Positions 1-1,029 of a stretch of 40,962 bases of DNA are shown here, piece by piece. This DNA comes from Halorhabdus amylolytica (GTDB lineage: Archaea > Halobacteriota > Halobacteria > Halobacteriales > Haloarculaceae). The position numbers and the translations under genes were made by a program. The stretch spans positions 303,112 through 344,073 of the forward strand of contig NZ_SPQG01000002.1 in assembly GCF_004944975.1 (NCBI RefSeq), given 5' to 3'. How positions within the stretch are numbered: the first letter of the stretch is position 1; each line of letters begins with the position of its first letter. The notes beneath the pieces are model-generated. The model worked only from the letters and a program-made list of their open reading frames with translations, was not told the DNA's origin and ran no database searches.

Positions 1-201
1 CCTCACGAGCGGAGTGAGGGAGGGCACAGAAGAGCTTGCTCTTCCGGCGTCTTGCCGAACGGGGTGAGGCAAGGCTCGAAAGACGAGTGAAATGAGTCTT
101 TCGGCGCATTTTGCGGCGAACAATCTGTGGCCGCAAATGCATTTTGAGGGTATTGAAGTAGAGAAGTCGCAGCCCCGGAACGGCCGAACACAGTGAGGCC
201 G
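1..201. repeat. Run of consecutive hairpins with near-constant 11-nt loops
   Basis: Six palindromes lie head to tail downstream of cbiE. The stems are 1-6/14-19 (CCTCAC), 29-35/38-44 (GAAGAGC), 51-56/68-73 (CTTGCC), 77-84/96-103 (CGAAAGAC), 111-117/130-136 (TTGCGGC, extended by GCAT/ATGC at 106-109/137-140) and 181-185/197-201 (CGGCC). Five carry related loops: GAGCGGAGTGA, GAACGGGGTGA, GAGTGAAATGA, GAACAATCTGTG and GAACACAGTGA. The stems differ completely in sequence yet remain paired. No convincing gene covers the region. It probably continues beyond the left edge. Function unknown; it could be a dispersed haloarchaeal palindromic repeat or a structured 3' region. Confidence 0.75.
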
Positions 202-273
202 CATTCCCAGAACGTCTCCCTCCGGTTCGATTTCCGAATGACGACCGCATCGTTCGGAGAGAATCTGTTCGAT

Positions 274-1029
274 TCAGGAACGACGGACGGCCAGCACCGA
301 GAGGTCCGAGAACGGGGTATCCTCCGGCCCCGATCCGCCGGCGTGTTCGGCCAGCGTGCCGAGCGAGCGGCGGGTGATCGTCTCGCCTTCGAGGGTGAGT
401 TCCTCCAGGACGAGAGTTTCGAGGTCGGGCGACGCCTCGGCGTTCAGCAACTCCGCCGCGATGTCACCGGGCATCATGTCGTACGGACGGGGAAGTACCA
501 GCAGGTGACGCTGGCCGACGGCCTCGCGCAGGCGATCGAGATCGGACTCGATCTCTCCGGACTTGTGGAGCGTGACGAAACAGGTCTCTTCGAGGGGCGT
601 CCGGGCCCGACTCGCCGCGACTTGCACCGCCGAGATCCCCGGCACCACCCGCACCGGCCGATCGATCGCGCGTTCGACCTTGCCGAGGAACTGGTAGCCC
701 GAGTGGTTCGGATCGCCCATCAGGACCGCGACGCCGGTCGCGCCATCCGCAACCTGGTCGCCGAACGTCGAGAGCGCCTCGGCCTCGTCCGCGTAACCAC
801 ACCGCAACAGTTCGGCGTCGGTGAGATCGGCGATGAAGTCCACGACCGTCGAGAAGCCGACGATCACGTCGGCCCTCGCGATCGCTTCGCGCGCTCGGTG
901 CGTGAGGAAGTCCGTATTTCCCGGCCCGATTCCGACGGCTTCGACCGGCGCCTCGACGTTTGAGTCCTCATGACTCGCGGCCGCAAAGACGGCCGGGTCC
1001 GGCCCGGAATCGAGATCGTGATCGCTCAT
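274..1029 (-). CDS. cbiE: Cobalt-precorrin-7 (C5)-methyltransferase
   Basis: This 251-residue protein belongs to the tetrapyrrole (uroporphyrin-III C/corrin) methylase family and is predicted to methylate C5 of the corrin ring using SAM. The SAM-site glycine motif VGIGPGNTDFLT is near residues 31-42, and the second conserved stretch VLMGDPNHSGYQFLGK is near residue 103. The first 30 residues are a haloarchaeal acidic extension. The start codon overlaps the cbiC stop (ATGA), so it is the last gene of cobN-cbiC-cbiE and is probably translationally coupled. CbiE is often fused to or adjacent to CbiT; here cbiT heads the other operon 12 kb away. The E subtype rests on family resemblance and context. 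Confidence 0.88.
   Translation of the reverse strand: MSDHDLDSGPDPAVFAAASHEDSNVEAPVEAVGIGPGNTDFLTHRAREAIARADVIVGFSTVVDFIADLTDAELLRCGYADEAEALSTFGDQVADGATGVAVLMGDPNHSGYQFLGKVERAIDRPVRVVPGISAVQVAASRARTPLEETCFVTLHKSGEIESDLDRLREAVGQRHLLVLPRPYDMMPGDIAAELLNAEASPDLETLVLEELTLEGETITRRSLGTLAEHAGGSGPEDTPFSDLSVLAVRRS

Follow-up and report, generated by a model that had tools for sequence, protein, structure and literature searches.

The six abutting hairpins at positions 1-201 of the window (the whole analysed stretch of DNA, 40,962 nt) form a non-random array. The best explanation of this array, which we hold with intermediate confidence, is a Halobacteria-wide family of extragenic hairpins similar to REP/BIME elements, in which the fold of one strand would be selected, mainly as single-stranded DNA (ssDNA), and whose cassettes would be spread by recombination. 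The hairpins have a consensus fold, compensatory changes, single-strand specificity, a preference for intergenic regions, gene 3' ends and the vicinity of tRNA genes, and a turnover of whole cassettes. The family apparently has no name so far.

Hairpin array between tRNA-Gly and cbiE

Five non-overlapping stems of at least 6 bp are observed in the array, compared to a mean of 0.42 in 1000 dinucleotide shuffles, none of which reached five. The folding z-score is -3.3 with DNA parameters and -2.9 with RNA parameters. The six successive palindromes reported by a preceding sequence-only reading are confirmed, five of them having the loop type described there, with the CTTG hairpin at 29-44 as the exception. 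The features of the array and its neighbour are listed below.

1-19, plus strand: hairpin 1, CCTCAC/GTGAGG with loop GAGCGGA; the alternative is core GAGCGGAGTGA with one A.G mismatch
29-44, plus strand: hairpin 2, GAAGAG-CTTG-CTCTTC, a member with a CTTG tetraloop and without the core
49-75, plus strand: hairpin 3, stem GTCTTGCC/GGCAAGGC, core GAACGGGGTGA
77-103, plus strand: hairpin 4, stem CGAAAGAC/GTCTTTCG, core GAGTGAAATGA
106-140, plus strand: hairpin 5, GCATTTTGCGGC/GCCGCAAATGC around GAACAATCTGTG, with one bulged T in the stem
148-235, plus strand: decayed tRNA-linked unit, composed of an inverted T-arm (GGGTATTGAAG), AGTCGCAG, hairpin 6, AACGTCT and a T-arm copy (CGGTTCGATTTCC)
181-201, plus strand: hairpin 6, CGGCC-GAACACAGTGA-GGCCG
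274-1029, minus strand: cbiE, cobalt-precorrin-7 C5-methyltransferase (NF004457, E 3.7e-114), the convergent neighbour of the array

Hairpin 5 comes first among the hairpins of a decayed tRNA-3'-end unit; the decayed status of the unit at 148-235 was established by direct comparison with the intact copy L012:17829-17990 and with other units.

Positions 1-201 are the right-hand part of an array flanked on the left by a tRNA-Gly(TCC) gene, outside the window, and on the right by cbiE. The run does not begin after cbiE, as had been proposed, since this gene reads into the array from the right. The proposal that the array is cut by the window edge was correct: it extends to the left beyond a 75-N gap, up to the tRNA-Gly gene, and this assembly gap separates hairpin 1 from its left neighbours. 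Two 75-N runs are present inside the array (G000:C12:302580-302654 and 303037-303111), the first starting within the tRNA-Gly-like GCGCCGGT and the second stopping one base before window position 1. The gaps are thus likely explained by repeat collapse during assembly, and the array is incomplete. The host genome is Halorhabdus-like, as the closest named neighbour of its TyrS is that of Halorhabdus salina (93%).

Structure of the constant tip

The constant 11-12-nt loop of the sequence-only reading is indeed common to five hairpins of the array, but a folded 11-mer, GA-RC-GNA-GY-GA, describes it more accurately. Including the closing pair, the pattern is C-GA-R-C-GNA-G-Y-GA-G: the tandem G.A pairs are followed inwards by one R-Y and one C-G pair, and the tip ends in a GNA triloop. 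The tip census used no criteria other than GA(N7)GA and a stem no shorter than 6 bp, and yielded 125 distinct intergenic hairpins in the fetched haloarchaeal DNA. The closing pair is Py-Pu in 121/125 of them (C-G 104, T-A 17, G-C 4). Positions 3-9 of the tip are paired in 116/125 hairpins (G-C 59, A-T 43, C-G 13, T-A 1), as are positions 4-8 (also 116/125; C-G 109, T-A 6, G-C 1), and the triloop is GNA in 89/111. It follows from these pairings and the triloop that the "loop" is actually a folded tip. The strict form of the GNA mini-hairpin, with two G-C pairs, is found in about half of the hairpins, the R-Y pair being G-C in 59/125 and A-T in 43/125. Stem sequences vary freely both among copies and among orthologs, the tip alone being conserved. 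Each unit may be described as a tip that is constant and folds on itself (tandem sheared G.A, R-Y, C-G, GNA triloop), carried by a stem of free sequence.

In the second form of the hairpins, C-GNA-G caps an ordinary Watson-Crick stem. Both forms are characteristic of intergenic DNA: C-GNA-G accounts for 38.8% of intergenic triloop hairpins (n=309), compared to 6.4% of coding and 3.7% of random ones, and GA(N7)GA for 34.8% of intergenic hairpins with 11-nt loops (n=325), compared to 3.2% and 0.7%, respectively. M2 modules (see below) also accept triloops other than GNA. RNA-type tetraloops are not enriched in intergenic hairpins (GNRA 6.0% compared to 5.9% in random sequence, UNCG 2.5% compared to 3.6%). 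Among other loops, CTTG is overrepresented (4.0% of intergenic tetraloop hairpins, 0.1% of coding, 0.7% of random), and GNYA tetraloops are likewise enriched in intergenic hairpins (10% against 6%).

In DNA, loops of the GNA and GNNA types form extraordinarily stable mini-hairpins when combined with G-C pairs, d(GCGAAGC) having a Tm of 78 C (PMC4686876). The commonest core has GCGAAGC at its centre. The stability of the tip as DNA is taken from this literature, since the ViennaRNA DNA parameter set contains no bonus for GNA triloops.

Compensatory changes and exchange of modules

Modules were compared among seven Halorhabdus genomes using 4-kb loci. In module M2 of the tRNA-Gly leader, 8/8 pairs are kept over 10 distinct sequences, with five pairs changed on both sides and no wobble pairs. 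The core of hairpin 4, GAGTGAAATGA in the window, is replaced by GAGCGAAGCGA in H. salina and G145 (which are identical at this site) and in G140, and by GAATGAAGTGA in G089, and the counterpart in G346 has core GAACGGAGTGA and stem AAAAAC/GTTTTT; differences among species at this hairpin are stepwise, via G.T or T.G intermediates. The counterpart of hairpin 3 in H. salina is CCTGTC/GGCAGG with GAGCGGAGCGA.

Noncanonical pairs, when read on the core strand, are G.T in 17 cases and A.C in 4 (p 0.007). The constraint thus appears to act on one strand and not on a symmetric cruciform. Stem pairing may be maintained by selection on one folded strand.

Moreover, whole hairpin cassettes are gained, lost and exchanged among species, between short constant boundaries (e.g. 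CTCGG...CCGGTG and copies of tRNA 3' ends). The leader modules at tRNA-Gly are bounded by constant CCGGTG and CTCGG, and their sets in complete Halorhabdus genomes are M1; M3,M1; M3,M2,M1; M3,M2; M2,M3; and M2,M1. In G050 and G140, which have no downstream units, the tRNA 3' end is fused directly to what in G089 is the sequence beyond the array. The interpretation of stem covariation within the locus as structural selection is therefore supported at orthologous sites (M2 and hairpin 4), but not throughout: as whole modules also move, part of this covariation is cassette exchange and not point compensation.

Distribution and orientation

The 11-mer core has 173 copies in the window's own genome, compared to 69 for the reversed pattern. 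The core is neither at chance level nor lacking paired flanks genome-wide, the two properties by which, according to the sequence-only reading, it could be dismissed. In nearly all of the 194 Halobacteria genomes the core is about twofold above the control, the excess being weak or absent in some of them (e.g. G129, G014, G099, G152). In most genomes of a phylum-wide sample outside the order, the 13-mer core is near background. A mild excess of the 13-mer is seen in one non-haloarchaeal genus (37, 25 and 39 copies in G291, G312 and G332, control 15, 14 and 18). In viral contigs, the core variant CCGAACGAAGTGAGG is found in at least 120 stretches, compared to 63 for the reversed control, counted over all hosts and regardless of stems.

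Most type A hairpins (137/153) are intergenic, genes being called by a simple codon-usage script and tRNAs by ARAGORN; coding regions contain many hairpins that are unrelated. Outside TyrS loci, 40 type A hairpins fall in 76 kb of convergent gaps and 15 in 122 kb of divergent ones (p 4e-7), the densities per kb being 0.53 for convergent, 0.22 for codirectional and 0.12 for divergent gaps (convergent to divergent about 4:1). Similarly, 35 hairpins are found in 45 kb adjacent to tRNA genes, compared to 63 in 344 kb elsewhere (0.78 and 0.18 per kb, a 4-5-fold difference, p 4e-10). The absolute densities are biased upward, since most of the fetched stretches were picked around core hits, while orientation and relative placement should be unaffected. 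Near tRNA genes, 34 type A hairpins are downstream and one is upstream. The units may survive where promoters are unharmed.

The orientation of the hairpins bears on the main alternative, an RNA element. On this account the hairpins are structured leaders and trailers of tRNAs and mRNAs, selected as RNA for 3'-end definition, processing, protection or protein binding, and the tandem G.A pairs could be a putative protein site, e.g. for L7Ae. We regard this as possible, though rather unlikely. Nearly all hairpins at the tRNA-Gly locus are in the sense orientation, downstream of a conserved promoter-like box and ahead of the tRNA. Type A hairpins in convergent gaps are closer to the end of the sense gene (median 97 compared to 179 nt; 26/40, p 0.011). 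The tolerance of G.T above A.C and the nested tandem-G.A fold predicted with RNA parameters also agree with an RNA. However, outside TyrS loci there is no overall strand bias (22 type A hairpins sense, 21 antisense), and 14/34 cores downstream of tRNAs are antisense. Also at odds with an RNA are the lack of enrichment of GNRA and UNCG, and the lack of a T-run 3' of type A hairpins, where the T fraction is 0.17 downstream and 0.19 upstream; an intrinsic poly-T (poly-U) terminator is ruled out, as this run is missing on the sense strand. In the Rfam search no family except tRNA scored above the gathering threshold, so a described Rfam RNA family was dismissed, and the 3-nt bulge of a kink-turn is missing. 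The preferred tips being of the type that is ultra-stable as DNA, and an overall orientation to transcription being absent, the strand probably folds mainly as ssDNA, during replication, repair or DNA transfer.

As to tRNA-Gly itself, the conserved box AAAGGAAACNCCCTTAA is located upstream of the hairpin leader (L086, L276-L282), which suggests that the hairpins and the tRNA may share a common transcript. In this putative transcript the 5' acceptor strand of tRNA-Gly could pair with the leader (CGGCGC-core-GCGCCGG).

Units linked to tRNA genes

A second copy of the last 24 nt of the tRNA, within 500 nt downstream and with at most five mismatches, was found for 50/131 tRNA genes (about 38%), whereas the reversed-sequence control gave 0/131 and no copies were found upstream. 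This rate may be inflated, as the sample was drawn around cores and included orthologous tRNA-Gly loci; in evenly spaced stretches of G050 a copy is present at 2/7 tRNAs. Examples are L092:11859-12180, L218:10062-10230 and L210:6834. In most cases an inverted T-arm of the host tRNA, followed by a hairpin, lies between the tRNA end and the copy. These units of 60-220 nt occur at many different tRNAs, each with the 3' end of its own host tRNA. In particular, the inverted T-arm has on average 2.04 mismatches to its own host and 3.00 to other tRNAs (p < 5e-5), or 2.30 and 3.24, respectively, when only non-Gly tRNAs are considered (p < 5e-5). The unit has a fold of nested helices; it is 92.9% paired, 8 pairs are changed on both sides, and its covariation score was matched by none of 500 shuffles.

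Such host-specific arms could also have a purely mutational origin. Mini-hairpins would then prime fold-back (template-switch) synthesis that copies the flank in inverted orientation, and repeated correction of this kind would keep the stems paired without any function. This explanation accounts for stems that are perfect around a constant hinge whatever their sequence, for the palindromes abutting in chains and for the match of inverted T-arms to the host tRNA, and C-GNA-G as well as C-GA-RC-GNA-GY-GA-G each represent a minimal fold capable of self-priming. Yet we consider it doubtful, since covariation of the R-Y and C-G pairs within the hinge and the G.T intermediates at orthologous sites look like selection. 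Moreover, the inverted (derived) T-arm is located 5' of the core and the original one 3' of it on the core strand, whereas simple fold-back copying would place the new arm 3' of the core; recombination at tRNA ends combined with selection for pairing therefore explains more of the data. Accordingly, the earlier idea of an arm copied to both sides of a mobile core was right in that whole cassettes are swapped and arms match the host tRNA, while the strand geometry of the T-arms is unlike that of simple fold-back.

A related reading, which we find similarly hard to favour, is that of self-renewing ssDNA hairpin cassettes at tRNA 3' ends, spreading from tRNA to tRNA without a known transposase. 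Each cassette would combine a copy of the host tRNA 3' end with an inverted T-arm, both placed around a GNA/tandem-G.A DNA hairpin that is ultra-stable, and would be renewed by hairpin-primed or protein-mediated copying. In the preferred reading, that of a REP/BIME-like family, the units may increase in number through recombination, or through template switching, at hairpins and tRNA-end repeats, and a host protein might recognise the folded tip.

Remnants of mobile elements are still less probable. Such remnants could stem from non-autonomous elements (PATE/IS200-IS605, REP-RAYT), whose palindromes are subterminal, or from integrations by tyrosine recombinases at tRNA 3' ends. The hairpins are dispersed, palindromic and intergenic, the units are flanked by copies of tRNA 3' ends that resemble attachment sites, with precise gain and loss between these copies, and haloarchaea do have PATEs (PMC3119063). 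Nevertheless, PF01797 (Y1) is absent from 61/194 Halobacteria genomes, including the core-rich G145 (173 cores compared to 69), G165 (251 compared to 96) and G041 (200 compared to 99), while G014, with 10 Y1 copies, is almost without core excess. Dependence on RAYT/Y1 is thus unsupported, the presence and absence of PF01797 being out of step with the core. In addition, stem sequences are unconserved, unlike transposon ends, and units at many tRNAs carry the 3' end of each host.

Finally, chance palindromes, of which GC-rich intergenic DNA might be expected to yield many, just as coding regions abound in unrelated hairpins, are extremely improbable, being refuted by the shuffle, reversed-pattern and coding controls.

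Comparison with known systems

The hairpins behave like REP/BIME elements but are outside the REP/RAYT family. REP/BIME elements of enterobacteria are short dispersed intergenic hairpins that avoid promoters, are enriched at gene 3' ends, cluster and are copied within genomes; in REPs the stem sequence is conserved, the head is GTAG and RAYT transposases are usually associated. The haloarchaeal hairpins are likewise extragenic, 3'-end-biased and multicopy. Unlike in REPs, their stems are free and the folded tip is constant, neither a GTAG-type head nor a conserved stem being found, and their presence is independent of Y1 transposases.

E. coli tyrT 178-bp repeats (RtT RNA) are arranged in tandem downstream of a tRNA gene, each with the tRNA 3' end, and represent one locus in enterobacteria. 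The haloarchaeal units also carry the tRNA 3' end downstream of the gene, but they occur at many tRNAs, with a hairpin and a host-specific inverted T-arm in between. Kink-turns and K-loops (L7Ae sites) have tandem sheared G.A pairs beside a stem, as does the haloarchaeal core. However, the standard 11-nt core has no 3-nt bulge, is paired internally up to the triloop and has no overall transcription-strand bias; a minority of 13-14-nt loops are candidate K-loops.

In PATE/IS605-type elements of haloarchaea, the palindromes near the termini are related in sequence and the boundaries of the element are defined (PMC3119063). The hairpins resemble them in being palindromic, haloarchaeal and present in transposase-free copies, but have only the tip and the fold in common, with no sequence-conserved terminal palindromes. 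The centre of the commonest core is exactly the DNA fold of d(GCGAAGC) mini-hairpins (PMC4686876); those are synthetic oligonucleotides, whereas here the fold, predicted from sequence, is a natural genomic motif set inside tandem G.A pairs at the end of a long stem.

The open-access literature yielded nothing direct on haloarchaeal REPs or tRNA-flanking repeats, an earlier description elsewhere being possible. Among the matches listed for core sequence strings in published texts, none concerned haloarchaeal repeats as far as titles and abstracts indicate.

Implications

For annotation, haloarchaeal tRNA flanks hold partial tRNA copies, which probably collapse in short-read assemblies, as at the window edge. 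The results also raise the testable question of whether ssDNA hairpins form in molar-salt cells and drive the copying of tRNA ends. If the preferred reading is true, archaea own a large family of extragenic repeats in which the fold is inherited rather than the sequence, and nature would make use of the GNA mini-hairpin that DNA chemistry has described.
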